Shown here one piece after another: positions 55,950-63,745 of a stretch of DNA of 64,000 nt (position 1 is the stretch's first letter; the number at the start of each line of letters is the position of its first letter). Location of the stretch: positions 62,001 through 126,000 of the forward strand of contig NZ_PCPT01000001.1 of NCBI RefSeq assembly GCF_002975435.1, in the 5' to 3' direction. Source of the stretch: Arthrobacter sp. MYb227 (GTDB taxonomy: Bacteria; Actinomycetota; Actinomycetes; Actinomycetales; Micrococcaceae). The translations under genes were made by a program, and so were the position numbers. The notes under the pieces were generated by a model that was not told the DNA's origin, did no database searches, and saw nothing but the letters and a program-made list of their open reading frames with translations.

Positions 55950-58900
55950 CTATGCTCCGATCAAGACCTTCTTCATATCCGCAAGATCAACGGTGCTATC
56001 GGCGAGCGCCGCAACTGCAGCATCATGGGTCACGATCACTACCGCACAATCCTTGAGTGCGACACGTAGGTCTGCAATCAGCTCGATTGCTTCATCGGCC
56101 CCGAGATGAGCTGTTGGCTCGTCAAGGAGCAGTACCTTGGAGCGGGCAACCAATGCTCGGGCAACTGCGAGTCGTTGGCGTTGTCCACCCGATAAGTGGT
56201 GTCCGCCCGAACCGATGCGCTCGTCGAGGCCCAAAGGCAGTGCTGCGTACCAGTCCCCCAATCCAACTTGGTTGATGACTGCGCATAGTTCGGTGTCGCT
56301 TGGTTGATCATCGAGGTTTCGGCCAAGTCCAAGGTTTGACCGAATGCTTGAGTCAAAGAGGTGTGCCTCTTGTGGGCACCACGAAATAGTTGCTAGGTCA
56401 TCGTCCTGAGCCGCTGCCCATTCCCCTGTACCGAGTTTGATCTGCAGCGTGCCTGATTGTGGAGGCAAGGCACCGAGGAAGGTGGCGAGCATTGTCGATT
56501 TGCCCGACCCAGATTCTCCGGTGATTCCTACCCATGTACCGGATTCGACCGCGACGTGTGCGTTTCCAAAAACCGAGGTGTCCTGTGTCCAGCCCGCTGT
56601 AACGTTCTCCAACCTGATTGACACCGGTGTTTCGGTTTTCTCGACTGGTGTGGTTGCGGTGGTAGTTCCCTGTTCGGTGTTTTCGGCTTCTTCGAGATTG
56701 ACCCAAACACGCTTGAGCACGTCATCGAGCTGTGGAAGCTGCTGCACCGAGGTGGCAGTGTTCGCGATGGGCTCCCCCAGAGCTAATAGCAACAGCCCGG
56801 CAACCGCAGCTGGTTCCCCCGCCCCGGTGGTTACTACTACTGCCATAACTGCGGCAAGGGCTGAGAGTAGTGCTGCTCCACCTTGGGCTAGCCCTGCTCC
56901 ACGTGCCGAGGCACGCAATACGGCTGTGGCTTTGGCATCTTCTCGAGCGAAGACGCTAAGTGCTGTATCTAGGGCGTTGTTGGCGCGCAGGTCATTTGCG
57001 GCTCGTAGCAAGGTGGGGACTCTAAAGCCTAACCAGATCCGGTGCTCGCTCACCGCAATGGTTGCCCGCTTTTCAACAGCCAAGACCGCCAGGGGAAGCA
57101 CCACGAGCGAAAGTACACCAAGTACTAAGGCAATCCAGAGTGCTTGCGGTGCCCAGAAGCCAATACCTATGGTGATAACAATCCAGGTAGCCACTCCCGC
57201 TACGGGCGGAACCAGCACGCGCGGTACCGCGTCGCGTACTTCATCAACCTCTGCGACGAGGTGACCCAATGCCGCACCCGAGCGGGTGATCTTTCCCCAC
57301 ATCTTCGGTTGGGCAACCAACGATTCCCAGAGTCGTTGGCGTAGGTTTCCGGAGAATCGGAGCACCGCGTCATGCACGCGAAGTTGTTCGGCATAGCGAA
57401 GTACCGAGCGGCCAACGCCGAAGGCGCGTACCCCCACGACTGCGACCATCAAGTGAAGCATGGGCGGTTGGTGGCTAGCTGTAACGATCAGCCACCCGGA
57501 GATTCCTGTGAGTCCCACTCCGAAGAGCGCCGAGAGCGTGGCAAGGAGTAGTCCTAGGCCCATACCACCGCGGAACCACGGCAGCGAACGCAAAATGGAC
57601 CAGTGCGCAAGGGAACGTTTTCCAACTGGCCGCTGAGTTTCCTGTCCAGGGCTGGCTTCAATGCTAGAAATGTCGTTGGTCAGTGCCTGCGCCGAGGCGG
57701 TAGCTGCGGTGTTGGTGTGTTCTGTTCTTAGTGTTTTTGCCAAGGTACGATCATGTGTGGCAACGAGCAGTGCGTAGCGAGTGCTCAGGTCTTTCAATGC
57801 CGTGCGGATCTTGGTTGCCGATACTTCATCGAGGTGAGCCGTTGGCTCATCGGCAAGGACGAGTTTCAGCTGTGGGTCCACGGCCGCTCGGGCCAGAACT
57901 CTGGCGACCGCGACCCTACGCAGTTCGCCGGGGCTGCAATCTACAAGATTCCGTTCAAGTAAATGAACTATGTTCGCGTCGCTAGCGATCTGGAAGAGCT
58001 TCTGCGCGTTCAATGCCCCACCGGCGTGCAAGGCAATTTCTTCGCTAACGCTCTGTTCTGTGAATTGTGGGTGCTGGGAGATCCAGCCAACGCATTGATC
58101 CTTGACCAAAATCTGGCCCTGAATATTTTCTTTGTTGAGCTGGCCTAGTACGGCATGTAATAGTGTGCTTTTGCCGGTACCGCTTGCTCCATCAAGAATG
58201 TAGGTTTCACCGTGTGCCAGTGTCAGGTTCAGTTCGCTAATAACAGGTTCTGCACGGTCTTGATGACGAACCCTGAGATTACGAATCTCCAGCACGTTGG
58301 AACTATTGAGCGTGAAATCGGCGTGCTGTGGCTGAGTCTGCTGATGTGAGCCAATGATGGTTTCGCTACGTTCAAGTGCTTCGACGCCATCTTCTGATGC
58401 GTGGTAAGCGGCGCCAAGTTCTCGAAGTGGTAGGTAGGCTTCGGGAGCTAGGATCAACGCCAGCAAGCCCGCCTCGAGTCCCATGTGTCCGTAGACCAGT
58501 CGTACACCAATGAATACGGCAACAACTGCCACGGAAATCGTTGCAATAAGTTCCAAGGCCAAGCCGGATAGAAACGCGGTGCGCAAAGTTTTCATGGTGC
58601 CCTGGCGGTAATCTTCCGAGACCTTGACCAGGGCTTGCCCCTTGCCCTTGGCTCTACGCAAACCAATGAGTGCTGGTAGTCCCTGGGCTAGTTCCAGCAA
58701 TTGGTTCGAAAGCTTATCGAGCCCCGCGGCAGCTGCCTTGACGCGCTCTACCGTATGTAAGCCAATCAGGATCATGAAGATGGGCACCAGTGGCAAGGTC
58801 AGCACAATGATCAGTGCCGAGACCCAGTCAGCTACCAAAACTCGAATGACGATCATCACCGGGATGATCGTTGCCGAAACTACTGCCGGAAGATACTTGG

Positions 58901-59282
58901 TGTAGTAGTTATCAAGCCCGTCTAGTCCACGACTTGCAAGTGCTGCCAAGGCACCGTGTTCCGGGCGGCCTTGTTCTGCAGTACCCGAGCCCTGCATGCC
59001 GGCTTCCATCAGACGCCCACGTAGGGTTTCCTTGGCACCGAGCCCTGCTCGCTGAGCAGCAAATTGGGTTCCCCAGACGGCCCCCGCACGTAAAAGCACG
59101 CCGCTGAGTCCAAGGACCAGTACACGCCGAACCTCGAGGTTCCCGGTTGCCGCAAGTTGTGAAATGCCGGTCGCCAGGGCATCGGCTATTAGCATCAGCC
59201 CAATGGCTTTGATTGCTGCTAGGCCGGCAAGCAGGGCAAGAACTGTCCGGGATCCGGTCCCTGCGGGAAGTACGGGTTTCAT
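55950..59282 (-). CDS. cydDC: CydD-CydC fused thiol ABC exporter
   Basis: A 1110-aa fusion of two ABC half-transporters that normally form the CydDC heterodimer exporting glutathione/cysteine-type thiols and needed for cytochrome bd assembly. Half 1: membrane domain, Walker A GASGTGKST (near residue 365), a variant signature CSPGELRR, DEPTAHLD. Half 2 starts near residue 560: Walker A GESGSGKST, LSGGQRQR, DEPTAHLG. ATG 59282 is chosen. It follows cydA and cydB in one operon. The exported thiol in a mycothiol producer is unknown. Confidence 0.94.
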   Translation of the reverse strand: MKPVLPAGTGSRTVLALLAGLAAIKAIGLMLIADALATGISQLAATGNLEVRRVLVLGLSGVLLRAGAVWGTQFAAQRAGLGAKETLRGRLMEAGMQGSGTAEQGRPEHGALAALASRGLDGLDNYYTKYLPAVVSATIIPVMIVIRVLVADWVSALIIVLTLPLVPIFMILIGLHTVERVKAAAAGLDKLSNQLLELAQGLPALIGLRRAKGKGQALVKVSEDYRQGTMKTLRTAFLSGLALELIATISVAVVAVFIGVRLVYGHMGLEAGLLALILAPEAYLPLRELGAAYHASEDGVEALERSETIIGSHQQTQPQHADFTLNSSNVLEIRNLRVRHQDRAEPVISELNLTLAHGETYILDGASGTGKSTLLHAVLGQLNKENIQGQILVKDQCVGWISQHPQFTEQSVSEEIALHAGGALNAQKLFQIASDANIVHLLERNLVDCSPGELRRVAVARVLARAAVDPQLKLVLADEPTAHLDEVSATKIRTALKDLSTRYALLVATHDRTLAKTLRTEHTNTAATASAQALTNDISSIEASPGQETQRPVGKRSLAHWSILRSLPWFRGGMGLGLLLATLSALFGVGLTGISGWLIVTASHQPPMLHLMVAVVGVRAFGVGRSVLRYAEQLRVHDAVLRFSGNLRQRLWESLVAQPKMWGKITRSGAALGHLVAEVDEVRDAVPRVLVPPVAGVATWIVITIGIGFWAPQALWIALVLGVLSLVVLPLAVLAVEKRATIAVSEHRIWLGFRVPTLLRAANDLRANNALDTALSVFAREDAKATAVLRASARGAGLAQGGAALLSALAAVMAVVVTTGAGEPAAVAGLLLLALGEPIANTATSVQQLPQLDDVLKRVWVNLEEAENTEQGTTTATTPVEKTETPVSIRLENVTAGWTQDTSVFGNAHVAVESGTWVGITGESGSGKSTMLATFLGALPPQSGTLQIKLGTGEWAAAQDDDLATISWCPQEAHLFDSSIRSNLGLGRNLDDQPSDTELCAVINQVGLGDWYAALPLGLDERIGSGGHHLSGGQRQRLAVARALVARSKVLLLDEPTAHLGADEAIELIADLRVALKDCAVVIVTHDAAVAALADSTVDLADMKKVLIGA

Positions 59283-59324
59283 GAAGAATTTTGTTCTTTC
59301 ATTTTGGCCCGCGTATCCGGGCAA

Positions 59325-59369: not shown

Positions 59370-60392
59370 TTAGACGATTGACTGAACTACGTGCGCTTCT
59401 GGAATATGCGATTCCTTGATGCGCTTACGGAACACCCAATAGGACCATGACTGGTAGGCAAGAACCATGGGTACACCGAATGCGGCAACAATACTCATGA
59501 GTTTGAGCGTGTATGGCGTGGAGGATGCGTTGAACACCGTGAGGTTGTATGCCGCATCAATCGTGGAGGGCAGGACGTTCGGGTAGGCGGCAATGAAGAT
59601 TGTCGCAACACCGGCAATCAGGAACACTCCGAGGGCTATAAAGGTGCGCACTTCTCGATTCTTCGTTGCTGCCTTCCATGCGAAGAGCAAGACGATCACT
59701 GCCAAGGCCAATGGAATCAGGGCGATTCCCGAGGCGTTGAGAATGACCACGGCGATGGCCCAGCCTGCCAACGGGAGCAGTGCTACAGGTAGCCAGCGTG
59801 CCAGCAATTTACCAGCCCGAACTCGGATATCACCATCTGTTTTCAGGGTGAGGAAGGCAAGCGCATGGATCAGGCAGAAGGCTACTACGCCAAGGCCACC
59901 GAGTACCGCGTACATATTAAACCAGGAGAATGCTCCACCAACACGGTCTCCATTGGCATTCAGCGGAAGGCCGGTGGTGCTCAAAGCGAGCATTGCACCA
60001 ACACCGAATGCTGCAACGAATGAGCCAAGTGCGATGGCCCAGTCCCAGAAGTTCCGGGCGGCTTCGGTGCGGGACTTACCGCGGTATTCGAAAGAAACTG
60101 CGCGGAAGATCAGCGCGATCAACACCAGTACCAACGGAACGTAGAGTGCCGAGAACAGCGATGCGTACCAGTAAGGGAAAGCGGCAAAGGTTGCACCGCC
60201 CGCCGTCAGAAGCCAGACTTCGTTGCCGTCCCAGACCGGGCCAACGGTGTTGAGTAGGACTCGACGTTGTTTGTCGTTTTTTGCAAAGGTCTTCATAAGC
60301 ATTCCGACGCCAAGGTCGAAACCCTCAAGGAAGAGGTAGCCGATCCAGAGTACGGCAATCAGGATGAACCACAGAGTGGGTAAGAAATCCAC
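59370..60392 (-). CDS. cydB: Cytochrome bd ubiquinol/menaquinol oxidase subunit II
   Basis: A 340-aa membrane protein with about eight segments, starting MDFLPTLWFILIAVLWIGYLF-like and carrying GFDLGVGML and GPVWDGNEVWLLTAGGATFAAFP, both classic CydB signatures. It forms the oxidase with CydA. It starts 27 bases after the cydA stop. Confidence 0.96.
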   Translation of the reverse strand: MDFLPTLWFILIAVLWIGYLFLEGFDLGVGMLMKTFAKNDKQRRVLLNTVGPVWDGNEVWLLTAGGATFAAFPYWYASLFSALYVPLVLVLIALIFRAVSFEYRGKSRTEAARNFWDWAIALGSFVAAFGVGAMLALSTTGLPLNANGDRVGGAFSWFNMYAVLGGLGVVAFCLIHALAFLTLKTDGDIRVRAGKLLARWLPVALLPLAGWAIAVVILNASGIALIPLALAVIVLLFAWKAATKNREVRTFIALGVFLIAGVATIFIAAYPNVLPSTIDAAYNLTVFNASSTPYTLKLMSIVAAFGVPMVLAYQSWSYWVFRKRIKESHIPEAHVVQSIV

Positions 60393-60419: not shown

Positions 60420-61997
60420 TTAGTAAGCGAAGGAGAGCACGTCATCGTCTTTTTTGTGCTTATCGTCGGGATGTTCGGTGAGTTCTGGCATAGCTGATCC
60501 AACACCGCCACGGATGTAGCGGGTCAATAGGACGACCTCGACCACCAGCAGTACCGCGTAAACAAGCGTCAGTGCGATCAATGAGAAGAGCATCTCCCCC
60601 GCGCTGACTCCTGGGGAGACTGCGGCTGCTGTGTACATGAAGACTTGATCAATACCTTCAAAGCTGGGATTTGGTGCCACCACGAAGGGTTGACGTCCCA
60701 TCTCGGTGAAGATCCAGCCTGCGGAGTTTGCCCCAAAGGGCGCGAGCATTCCAAAAAGGGCAAGGCGTGAGAGCCATTTGCTCTGCGGCACCGTTCCCTT
60801 GCGTGTCAGCCATAGGGCAACTCCCGCGGCTACCGCGGAGAGACCACCTAGGGTGATCATCAGACGGAACCCCCAGTAGGTGACGGCCATAACCGGTACA
60901 TAGTCGATTTCTGTTCCGGCCCGGTCGCCATACATGGGGTCATTCGGAATATGGGTTCCGTATTTTTCCTGGTACTCAGGAACCAGGGTATTGACACCCT
61001 TGATTTCTGTAGTGAAATCATTGTGTGCCAAGAATGAAAGCAGGCCTGGAAGCTCCCAGACGGCAACCATGTCATCGCAGGTGGTTTTCCCCGGTGAGCT
61101 CAGATCACCAATGGAAAGGACAGAGAAGCCGGTGCCGTCATGGCAGGCGGCTTCGGCTGCGGCCATTTTCATTGGCTGCTGTTCAAACATGAGTTGTGCT
61201 TGGGCATGACCGGAGAAGGCGACGCCCAGGAAAGATACGAGTGCTACTGCCGAACCAATGCGCAGGGATTTGATCCAGACGTTGTAATCGGTCTTATCGC
61301 GATTTTTACCCAACGTAGCGCTCTCACCAATGATGACTCGACCGTTTGCATCAACGCTGTCGATCCCTGCACTGCGACGCTTGTAAAGGTGATACCAGGA
61401 GATGCCAAGCAGGAATCCGCCGGCCACCGCGAAGGCGCCAAAGATGGTGTGTGGGAAGGTAACCATTGCTGTGTTATTTGTAAACACGGCCCAGGCGTCG
61501 GTCATGACGGCGCGGCCGTCAACGATTTCGGTTCCGACCGGGTGCTGCATCCAGGAGTTGGCTACCAAAATGAAGTATGCCGACAGCGTGGCTGCAAGTG
61601 TTGCGCACCAAATGGTTGCCAGGTGGACGCGCTTGGGTAGCCGGTCCCAACCGAAGATCCATAATCCCAGGAAGGTAGATTCGACGAAGAACGCCAGCAA
61701 GGCTTCCATGGCAAGTGGTGCACCAAAGACGTCACCAACAAAGCGACTGTATTCACTCCAGGCCATACCGAATTGGAATTCTTGGACGATGCCCGTGGCG
61801 ACACCCATGATGAAGTTAATGAGGAAAAGCTTTCCCCAGAACTTGGTCATGCGGAGGTATTCATCCTTGCCAGTCCGGTGCCAGGCTGTTTGCATCACCG
61901 CCACCACTATTCCCAGACCGATGGTCAGGGGAACCATGAGGAAGTGATAAACGGTGGTGATGCCAAATTGCCATCTGGCTATTTCGAGCGGGTCCAC
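60420..61997 (-). CDS. cydA: Cytochrome bd quinol oxidase subunit I
   Basis: A 525-aa haem-bearing subunit that oxidises quinol and reduces O2 with high affinity. Features: RWQFGITTVYHFL (haem b595 His), EFQFGMAWSEYSRFVGDVFG and WIFTEMGRQPFV. I chose GTG 61997 (MDPLEIARWQFG) because AAAGG lies 6-7 bases upstream and the protein then begins like known CydA; the ATG pair at 62015/62018 lacks a ribosome binding site. First gene of cydA-cydB-cydDC; its promoter carries two operator-like repeats. Confidence 0.96.
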   Translation of the reverse strand: MDPLEIARWQFGITTVYHFLMVPLTIGLGIVVAVMQTAWHRTGKDEYLRMTKFWGKLFLINFIMGVATGIVQEFQFGMAWSEYSRFVGDVFGAPLAMEALLAFFVESTFLGLWIFGWDRLPKRVHLATIWCATLAATLSAYFILVANSWMQHPVGTEIVDGRAVMTDAWAVFTNNTAMVTFPHTIFGAFAVAGGFLLGISWYHLYKRRSAGIDSVDANGRVIIGESATLGKNRDKTDYNVWIKSLRIGSAVALVSFLGVAFSGHAQAQLMFEQQPMKMAAAEAACHDGTGFSVLSIGDLSSPGKTTCDDMVAVWELPGLLSFLAHNDFTTEIKGVNTLVPEYQEKYGTHIPNDPMYGDRAGTEIDYVPVMAVTYWGFRLMITLGGLSAVAAGVALWLTRKGTVPQSKWLSRLALFGMLAPFGANSAGWIFTEMGRQPFVVAPNPSFEGIDQVFMYTAAAVSPGVSAGEMLFSLIALTLVYAVLLVVEVVLLTRYIRGGVGSAMPELTEHPDDKHKKDDDVLSFAY

Positions 61998-62046: not shown

Positions 62047-62101
62047 AACTTCTACGTCTCGTAGAAGTTCATTTCTACCCACTGTAGAACATTTTCCTCA
62101 A
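62047..62101 (-). promoter_or_regulatory. cydA promoter with two TTCTAC-N5-GTAGAA operators
   Basis: Operator 1 at 62047-62069 has perfect 10-bp arms around a 3-base centre; operator 2 at 62073-62089 has TTCTAC-N5-GTAGAA. Centres are 23 bp apart. On the minus strand, TTGAGG (62101-62096) and TAGAAA (62077-62072) with an 18-base spacer make a promoter whose -10 lies in operator 2 and whose start point falls in operator 1. This is the layout of repression. The CTAC...GTAG symmetry resembles BlaI/MecI-type sites. Confidence 0.68.
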
Positions 62102-62128
62102 ACACTGTAAACTTGGGTTAGCGAAAGG

Positions 62129-62181
62129 TTCGAAACACCTGACGCCGAACACTGCGCATCATGCCGTGTTCATGTTTCGAA
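62129..62181 (+). promoter_or_regulatory. Nested inverted repeats in the blaI-like leader
   Basis: TTCGAAACA (62129-62137) pairs with TGTTTCGAA (62173-62181), and inside it GAACAC (62147-62152) pairs with GTGTTC (62166-62171). It ends just before AGGA and the TTG start at 62199. It may be a leader hairpin or a second operator. Confidence 0.4.
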
Positions 62182-62198
62182 TGTGTTAGGAAATTAGA

Positions 62199-62573
62199 TT
62201 GGCCACTCTTGGCGACCTTGAACGATCAGTAATGGATCTTCTTTGGGACTCGGTACCCCCCCTCACGGCCAACGAACTACGCGATAAGCTCGCCGAACCC
62301 GGTGACGTCGCAGGTAAAGAACTTGCAGTGACCACGGTTCTCACCGTCCTTGCACGTTTAGAAAAAAAGGGCCTCGTTGCCCGCGAACGCGATATTCGTC
62401 CACACCGCTACACCTCGGTTACTAGCCGTGAAGAACACACAGTTGCTCTCATGAATGAAGCACTTGGCACCGTCTTGGATCGCGAAGCAGTGCTGGCACG
62501 ATTCATTGGCGGCATATCCGCCGAAGAAGCGCAGTCATTGCGTCAACTTCTAGACTCGCCGCACAACGCCTAA
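62199..62573 (+). CDS. BlaI/MecI/CopY-family transcriptional repressor
   Basis: A 124-aa winged-helix repressor. The N-terminal DNA-binding domain holds LERSVMDLLWDSVPPLTANEL and VTTVLTVLARLEKKGLVARE, both typical of BlaI. The start is TTG 62199 with AGGA 8 bases upstream. Family members dimerise on CTAC/GTAG-type palindromes and are inactivated by cleavage by a BlaR1 protease. An M56 peptidase gene follows 24 bases later, and candidate sites lie in the divergent cydA promoter. Confidence 0.92.
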   Translation: MATLGDLERSVMDLLWDSVPPLTANELRDKLAEPGDVAGKELAVTTVLTVLARLEKKGLVARERDIRPHRYTSVTSREEHTVALMNEALGTVLDREAVLARFIGGISAEEAQSLRQLLDSPHNA

Positions 62574-62597
62574 GCGCTCCCCTAACGGCCGAGCGCG

Positions 62598-63557
62598 GTG
62601 CTGCTGACCTCATACATCTTGGCGGGCTTGGCCATCTTATTGGCATGGCCTATACCCGTCATGCTTTCGCGTGCCCGCTGGAGCACGCGTTCGCCATTTG
62701 CGGCAATGATTCTCTGGCAGTCGATCGCACTGGCAGGTGGCCTGTCGATGATCGGCGCACTGCTTTTTTGGGGGTTGAACCCCATGGGCAATACGCTCAT
62801 CTCCTCGTTGATCTCGGGCGTAAAGCTCGTACTAGGTGACCCGAACGTCAATTCCCCAGGAACCGTACACATCTTTGCCTTGAGTACAGCGGCATTGCTG
62901 GGATTTCACCTGGTGCTGACATTGATTCGGGCGGCATGGCGAATTACCAGACAACGAGCCAAACACCGGCACATCCTCTCCCTCCTTTCGGAGAAATCCC
63001 CCACCGACCCAACAACGTTAGTTTTGGATCATGAAACGCCGGTAGCATACTGTTTGCCAAGTTTCAGTGGCTCTGTCACCGTTCTATCCCGTGGCCTCGT
63101 TAAACAACTGACCGAAGACGAGTTACGTGCGGTCATGGCCCACGAACGCGCCCACCTCGATCAGCGGCACGATCTATTGTTGCTGGCCTTTACCTCCTGG
63201 AATGATGCACTGCCTTGGCTCCCAACCTCAAAATTGTCCTTGGCTGCGGTTCAGGAGCTAGTCGAAATGCTTGCCGACGATGCCGCCTTACGCGAAGTTG
63301 AACCAAAGACGCTTTTGCGGGCCTTATTGACCGTGGCAACCGGGGCGCTTGGCGCACCCGCCACACCCAATGCCGCACTGCCCCCGGAGGGAGCCCCGGG
63401 AGGCCCCACCGAGGAGTTGTCATCACGCAGGCTCAAGCGCTTACTCACCGTTCAACCACAACTCGGTGGTGGCCTGCGCGCCACGATTATCGCAGGCGCC
63501 TTGTTCTTAATAGCTCTTCCTACCACGCTGGTTATTGTCCCCGGATTCTTTGAGTAG
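62598..63557 (+). CDS. BlaR-like M56 membrane metallopeptidase without sensor domain
   Basis: A 319-aa membrane protease. Membrane segments lie near residues 3-22, 34-62, 90-112 and 295-315. HERAH at 182-186 is the zinc motif, with EMLADDAAL downstream giving the third ligand. BlaR1 proteins also carry a ~250-aa penicillin-binding sensor at the C-terminus; it is absent here, so the signal is not a beta-lactam by that route. Start at GTG 62598. It is expected to cleave or control the BlaI-like protein encoded upstream. Confidence 0.9.
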   Translation: MLLTSYILAGLAILLAWPIPVMLSRARWSTRSPFAAMILWQSIALAGGLSMIGALLFWGLNPMGNTLISSLISGVKLVLGDPNVNSPGTVHIFALSTAALLGFHLVLTLIRAAWRITRQRAKHRHILSLLSEKSPTDPTTLVLDHETPVAYCLPSFSGSVTVLSRGLVKQLTEDELRAVMAHERAHLDQRHDLLLLAFTSWNDALPWLPTSKLSLAAVQELVEMLADDAALREVEPKTLLRALLTVATGALGAPATPNAALPPEGAPGGPTEELSSRRLKRLLTVQPQLGGGLRATIIAGALFLIALPTTLVIVPGFFE

Positions 63558-63622: not shown

Positions 63623-63745
63623 TCAGTATTCGGCTCCGGAATCGAAGAATACCGATAATCCGCCGGAGAGCAAGAAGCCGCCCAAAAGAACTATGGCTAC
63701 GGTAATGCATGAAATGGTCACAACCATTTTCTTATGCTCGGTCAT
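63623..63745 (-). CDS. 40-residue single-pass membrane protein
   Basis: Starts MTEHKKMVVTISC, has one hydrophobic segment (about residues 8-33) and ends DSGAEY. AGAAGGA lies 4 bases before the ATG, a good ribosome binding site. It is convergent with the M56 peptidase gene, which ends 65 bases away. Function unknown; it is below the size cut-off of most gene callers. It is not obviously CydX-like and is on the far side of the regulator pair from cydAB. Confidence 0.6.
   Translation of the reverse strand: MTEHKKMVVTISCITVAIVLLGGFLLSGGLSVFFDSGAEY

Follow-up and report, generated by a model that had tools for sequence, protein, structure and literature searches.

A BlaI-type repressor and a sensorless BlaR1-like protease as a candidate switch for respiratory genes in Arthrobacter sp. 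MYb227

Operators, repressor and protease at the cydA locus

We analyzed a 64-kb stretch of contig NZ_PCPT01000001.1 of Arthrobacter sp. MYb227 (the window), in which the genes for cytochrome bd, cydA followed by cydB and a fused cydDC, are all divergent from a gene pair encoding a BlaI-type repressor and a BlaR1-like membrane protease (Table 1). Two TTCTAC-N5-GTAGAA palindromes lie between cydA and this pair. The initial annotation had reported both; they are exact, and no further exact match occurs in the window, whose one remaining match carries 2 mismatches. The annotation had also placed the palindromes over the −10 element and the start point of cydA. This was not confirmed, since a consensus scan for sigma-70-like promoters between 61900 and 62700 found none, for 0.5 expected in shuffled sequences. 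The start codon of cydA is likely the GTG at 61995-61997, homology beginning at residues 15-18 of the longer open reading frame in 52 of 67 relatives; with this start, the nearer operator is situated 52 bp upstream of the coding sequence. CydD and CydC form a single fused protein of 1124 residues.

Table 1. Coordinates of the operators, genes and protein sites at the locus (positions in the window)
Feature	Position	Strand	Evidence
Operator 1, TTCTAC-N5-GTAGAA, cydA-proximal	62050..62066	.	exact match
Operator 2, TTCTAC-N5-GTAGAA, 23 bp from operator 1	62073..62089	.	exact match
blaI-type repressor gene, 124 residues, TTG start	62199..62573	+	PF03965, 79.6 bits
Sensorless BlaR1-like membrane zinc protease gene, 319 residues	62598..63557	+	
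HExxH zinc site of the protease (H182, E183, H186)	63141..63155	+	invariant in 52 proteins
E223 of the protease, likely third zinc ligand	63264..63266	+	invariant in 52 proteins
cydA, cytochrome bd subunit I, GTG start chosen	60420..61997	-	PF01654, 516 bits; start from homology
cydB, cytochrome bd subunit II	59370..60392	-	PF02322, 341.1 bits; TIGR00203
Fused cydDC, ABC exporter	55950..59324	-	TIGR02857, 634 bits, and TIGR02868, 494.1 bits, in one open reading frame

The repressor matches the BlaI/MecI penicillinase-repressor family well above the profile cut-off of 22.6 bits, in agreement with its first assignment, and is the sole match of its kind in the host genome, where it is single-copy. 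Its closest solved structure is 2g9w (E 1.4e-19), which we take to be M. tuberculosis BlaI Rv1846c; the S. aureus repressor structures 1sd4 and 1okr are matched by the repressor profile as well. In the alignment, the bond R101|F102 corresponds to the cleavage position of S. aureus BlaI, and F102, which aligns with the phenylalanine following the cut, is invariant in 17 of these repressors.

The protease had been described as an M56/BlaR-like enzyme devoid of the penicillin-binding sensor. The likeness to BlaR holds at the level of the predicted fold, which matches S. aureus BlaR1 across the transmembrane and protease parts and not over a sensor domain, so that the protein has the features of a membrane gluzincin with BlaR1 topology. 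Pfam scores Peptidase_M48 at 46.7 bits (cut-off 20.3) and Peptidase_M56 at 24.7 bits, below its gathering cut-off of 31. The last helix spans residues 291-313 and the chain ends six residues later, where a penicillin sensor would begin; the protease thus lacks the C-terminal penicillin-binding sensor, as proposed. By analogy with gluzincin proteases, E223 is likely to provide the third zinc ligand. The transmembrane His104 was considered as a haem or quinone ligand. It is invariant in 52 family proteins and absent from mycobacteria-like proteins, hence such a role would be lineage-specific at most; Cys152 (in AYCLP) has a wider distribution.

Convergent with the protease gene, a 40-codon open reading frame (63623-63745, minus strand) could encode a single-helix-like peptide. 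No convincing relative of it was found among 80 named loci (best E 0.29).

Distribution of the operator in the host and its relatives

The comparison of gene order that the annotation had suggested revealed a divergent cydA in 67 of the 80 named loci, and in each of these 67 the cydA|blaI gap contains exact operators: three in 43 loci, two in 20 and one in 4. In the 63 loci whose gap holds more than one operator, the distance from the first to the second is 21-26 bp in 59 cases and 24 or 25 bp in 48; the third often sits closer to blaI, as expected for autoregulation. An operator still precedes blaI in 9 of the 13 named loci that have no cydA within reach, and the protease gene follows blaI in all 80. 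Around the best BlaI matches in whole genomes, 30 of 30 loci (one of them that of the host, and 28 with cydA in the flank) carry exact operators upstream of blaI. The five central bases are variable (purine-rich at the first), which indicates that conservation resides in the two arms. Paeniglutamicibacter provides the closest named relatives, and one genome of a further family (G056, locus L409) likewise has blaI and cydA so arranged, together with an exact operator. At L192, from Pseudarthrobacter sp. Fe7, blaI and three operators are present and the protease open reading frame measures 171 residues, possibly as a result of truncation or frameshift.

A genome-wide search, likewise suggested by the annotation, returned 7 exact and 11 one-mismatch sites in the host. 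Chance palindromes are ruled out by two controls, since the permuted palindrome of the same letters gave 0 exact sites and 1 with one mismatch, and the reversed pattern gave 1 exact site. When up to 2 mismatches were allowed, the motif was not enriched in the host genome (112 versus 230 for the reversed pattern), and for that reason sites weaker than one mismatch were left unused. Sixteen of the 18 sites are located at the start of a gene, which in 13 of the 16 cases serves respiration, haem, copper, nitric oxide (NO), ATP or the tricarboxylic acid (TCA) cycle, as identified by Pfam (by eye for lipA). The exact sites comprise the two at cydA and one each at hemA, a copC/PCuAC operon of copper chaperones, the flavohaemoglobin gene hmp, a pyridoxamine-oxidase-like gene divergent from APP1, and a universal stress protein gene. 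Sites with one mismatch precede the ATP synthase operon (L020), ctaE-qcrC, ctaB (divergent from transketolase), an ABC-ctaA operon divergent from suf, DUF3099-SURF1, sucCD, lpd-sucB, lipB-lipA and a gene for a small membrane protein; the two others (L017 and L023) have no recognisable link. The locus carrying ctaA presumably corresponds to M. tuberculosis rv1456c, reportedly identified as a BlaI target by Sala in 2009.

The presence of the motif tracks that of the BlaI orthologue across genomes. Of 59 relatives, 35 contain an orthologue, defined by a score of at least 109 bits (47-99% identity). At least one exact site was found in 34 of these 35 and in 1 of the 24 others (Fisher p 3.9e-14, shared descent being ignored); within the window's family, the corresponding values are 33 of 33 and 1 of 4. 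We then scored, per genome, the sites within one mismatch upstream of orthologous genes. For the atpB operon, such a site was present in 28 of the 35 BlaI-bearing genomes and in 0 of 15 that lack BlaI; the corresponding values are 23 of 35 versus 0 of 13 for ctaE and 13 of 35 versus 0 of 15 for hemQ. In the same regions, 59 permuted palindromes gave a mean of 0.00-0.02 genomes of 35, with a maximum of 1. Counted by genus, the values are 14 of 21 for atpB, 9 of 21 for ctaE and 13 of 21 for hemQ. The highest number of exact sites in the 59 genomes, 15, was observed in G026, including those at sdhC, SURF1, ctaB, ctaC and resA (L096-L099, L392-L401). Across the phylum, the looser pattern TNCTAC-N5-GTAGNA has a match in 51 of 198 genomes and exceeds its reversed control in 5 only (8 versus 7 in the host, 1 versus 0 in the four others), so that this looser form shows no enrichment outside the window's family.

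In the other genera of the family, a census of exact sites elsewhere than in the cydA|blaI gap yielded 64 loci with 65 sites (L061 has two) from 18 genera. According to classes assigned partly by eye, 43 of the 64 loci are at genes for respiration, haem, copper, iron-sulphur (Fe-S) clusters, NO, ATP or the TCA cycle. The most frequent targets are hemQ-hemH (11 loci), copC/CopD-type genes (8), hmp (6) and memX, an uncharacterised membrane protein (5), then ABC|suf and pyridoxamine-oxidase-like genes (4 each) and cytochrome c maturation genes (resA, ccdA, resB; 3). Two loci each were counted for hemA, ctaC, cydA, crp, yceI and memZ, a second membrane protein of no known role, and one each for atp, sucCD, ctaB, SURF1, sdhC, ppk2 and memW, a third membrane protein; 4 loci are unclear.

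Several of these genes deserve mention in their own right. An exact operator precedes memX in five genera (L055, L062, L089, L097, L404); the next gene in L062 is cytochrome b561-like, and the copy in L055 has no Pfam match. At hmp, the exact operator occurs in seven genera (L013, L056, L067, L079, L081, L085, L088) and an NsrR-like gene of the Rrf2 family lies no more than about 1.5 kb away, a hint that hmp is under double control by NO and by the BlaI-type system. Exact operators upstream of a Crp-family regulator gene in two genera (L069, L405) hint at a regulatory cascade.

Proposed mechanism and rival explanations

We consider it probable that the BlaI-type protein and the sensorless BlaR-type protease constitute a global repressor-protease switch for respiration and energy genes. 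Dimers of the repressor would bind the TTCTAC-N5-GTAGAA operators, with cooperativity where two or three of these separate cydA from blaI, and would thereby block cydABDC and, in many genera, their own operon. The same repressor would block operons for haem synthesis, the haem-copper oxidase and its assembly, copper delivery, Fe-S assembly, lipoate and 2-oxoglutarate dehydrogenase, succinyl-CoA ligase, ATP synthase and NO detoxification. Upon membrane or respiratory-chain trouble, the protease would cut the repressor before the invariant Phe102 and release the regulon. That both oxidases, their cofactor supply and ATP synthase come under one operator argues against a simple low-oxygen oxidase switch and for a homeostat of respiratory capacity. 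The initial annotation had proposed that the pair controls cytochrome bd in response to a respiratory or redox signal. This proposal points in the right direction and is partly supported: the protease lacks the penicillin sensor, operators occupy all 67 cydA|blaI gaps, the motif follows BlaI across genomes and marks respiratory genes, and F102 is invariant. It proves too narrow, cyd being one of about a dozen respiratory, haem, TCA and ATP-synthase targets, and is not new in principle in view of M. tuberculosis BlaI.

The switch would more likely report that respiration is damaged or falls short, be it through NO, a lack of copper or haem, a lost proton-motive force or the quinone redox state, than report on oxygen alone. 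The products of hmp, cyd, suf and the lipoate/2-oxoglutarate dehydrogenase genes are either damaged by NO or counter it. The recurrence of hmp, cyd and suf among the targets, joined in the host by the lipoate/2-oxoglutarate dehydrogenase genes, makes NO or another respiratory poison the first candidate; copper or haem shortage would come second.

Several observations weigh against the proposed switch. The case for this organism is built from sequence and predicted structure, and activation in place of repression would be compatible with it. The fold match to BlaR1 is modest (Foldseek E 2.2e-3) and, by Z, is tied within 1 with other M48-type proteases; in the alignment, no conserved residue of the loop preceding the last helix corresponds to the autocleavage phenylalanine of BlaR1. 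The genomes compared share descent, and a single genus supplies 15 of the 35 that bear BlaI. In the window's own genus hemQ lacks a site within one mismatch (0 of 15), the host having its exact site at hemA. G041 has an orthologue (57% identity) and no exact site, and conversely G025 has an exact cydA operator (L402) without a close orthologue, its only BlaI relative being distant (41% identity) and located elsewhere; the G025 site may be a relic or belong to another regulator. Among the census loci, 21 of 64 are away from clear respiratory genes. Finally, a 2025 paper reports that knock-down of mycobacterial BlaI gave no detectable rise in ATP (PMC12565901).

The pair might still respond to beta-lactams or to cell-wall stress and have drawn respiratory genes under its control, as has been proposed for M. 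tuberculosis; the trigger would be envelope damage which another protein relays. The beta-lactam role gives the family its name, and amoxicillin-clavulanate is reported to induce blaI-blaR of M. tuberculosis, which control blaC there (PMC5473688). Against this stands the missing sensor domain of the protease. In addition, a search for class A beta-lactamases (PF13354), positive in 8 of 14 control genomes and not extended to PBP2a or the other beta-lactamase classes, detected none in the host genome. By eye and tblastn, no beta-lactamase was recognised next to the 18 sites of the host or at the 64 loci of the census (4 of these loci being unclear). We regard such a system as unlikely. That the BlaI-type protein is an activator, or that the protease does not act on it, appears quite unlikely to us. 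The operators were indeed placed without mapped promoters, but the phenylalanine at the cleavage position is invariant, the protease gene invariably lies downstream of blaI, and S. aureus BlaI is a repressor cut directly by BlaR1 (PMC9834060).

Another regulator, such as a redox or cyclic-AMP regulator, could own the palindromes and leave BlaI a bystander. The binding of BlaI to these operators is predicted, the site precedes a Crp-family gene in two genera, and G025 retains its cydA site in the absence of a close BlaI. Yet sites occupy the blaI gap in every one of the 67 loci and persist before blaI in most of those deprived of cydA, exact sites are absent from 3 of the 4 genomes of the family that lack a BlaI orthologue, and the repressor is single-copy in the host, which makes a bystander role very improbable. 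It is hardly credible that the pair is a local cyd switch and that most other sites are fortuitous: although the cyd sites are the most numerous and the most regular, the permuted control gave 1 site versus 18, and the upstream regions of orthologues differ sharply between genomes with and without BlaI. The recurrence of targets across genera leads us to reject a switch restricted to cyd.

Known BlaI systems and implications for respiration

M. tuberculosis BlaI is a partial precedent, so that the kind of system is known, and as far as our literature search shows the new part consists of the broad respiratory regulon and the cyd-linked form; among the papers listed by that search, none was recognised on this pair or on a BlaI respiratory regulon in Arthrobacter-type bacteria. 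The resemblance to M. tuberculosis BlaI (Rv1846c) and BlaR (Rv1845c) lies in a sensorless protease beside BlaI and in operators at ATP synthase and cyd. The host differs by the absence of a blaC-like (PF13354) gene, by the adjacency of blaI and cydA, and by a far wider list of respiratory, haem and TCA targets. M. tuberculosis BlaI is reported to bind at the promoters of the genes for cytochrome bd and ATP synthase (PMC5473688, eLife 2017, citing Sala 2009), and mycobacterial BlaR lacks the sensor (PMC5473688). BlaI bound the Rv1303-atp operon in electrophoretic mobility shift assays, and its overexpression lowered transcription of the ATP synthase operon (PMC12565901). Transposon sequencing indicated that blaR, also sensorless, is required for the use of haem or haemoglobin as iron source (PMC7058343).

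In a mycobacteria-like family, assigned from its proteins, the protease is beside BlaI in 5 of 5 loci (L103-L107). The operator arms differ, being TTCTAC/GTAGAA here and TACTAC/GTAGTA at cydA in the mycobacteria-like genus, where exact TACTAC-N5-GTAGTA was found at cydA in two genomes (L221, L226). This pattern is not enriched by number in that genus (25 exact sites in 26 genomes versus 29 for the reversed control). Inspected by eye, 17 loci with it comprise cydA (2), a qcrB-like gene (1), ccdA (1), VOC-family-like genes (5), small membrane proteins (2) and unclear cases (6); the repeated VOC-family-like protein after the exact site (L210, L211, L214, L215, L217) is a separate observation.

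With S. aureus BlaR1-BlaI and MecR1-MecI, the pair shares the repressor family, the transmembrane and zinc-protease fold and the phenylalanine after the repressor cut; it differs in lacking the extracellular penicillin-binding sensor and in having no recognised beta-lactam resistance gene among its targets. HrrSA of Corynebacterium glutamicum is a two-component system, whose proteins are unrelated to the BlaI-type pair. The likeness resides in the control of terminal oxidases combined with a haem response in an actinobacterium (PMC7337898).

These results turn a pair related to penicillin-resistance genes into a candidate master switch of respiration in a large group of soil bacteria, with operators and targets named, and make the question of what a sensorless BlaR senses testable outside a pathogen. 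We propose tentatively, as a possibility, that actinobacterial BlaR/BlaI-type pairs are at root respiration-sensing: the drug-sensorless protease would read the respiratory membrane and destroy one repressor, freeing a whole biogenesis programme (both terminal oxidases, the supply of haem, haem A, copper, Fe-S clusters and lipoate, ATP synthase, and NO detoxification). On this view the beta-lactam role would have arisen later, as a specialisation, and the mycobacterial effects of beta-lactams would partly be a by-product of respiratory stress. This would explain why M. tuberculosis BlaI reaches ATP synthase and cytochrome bd, two enzymes linked to respiration-blocking drugs, and labelling such pairs as resistance determinants would then mislead. 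If true, the switch would be a bacterial counterpart to mitochondrial stress signalling.
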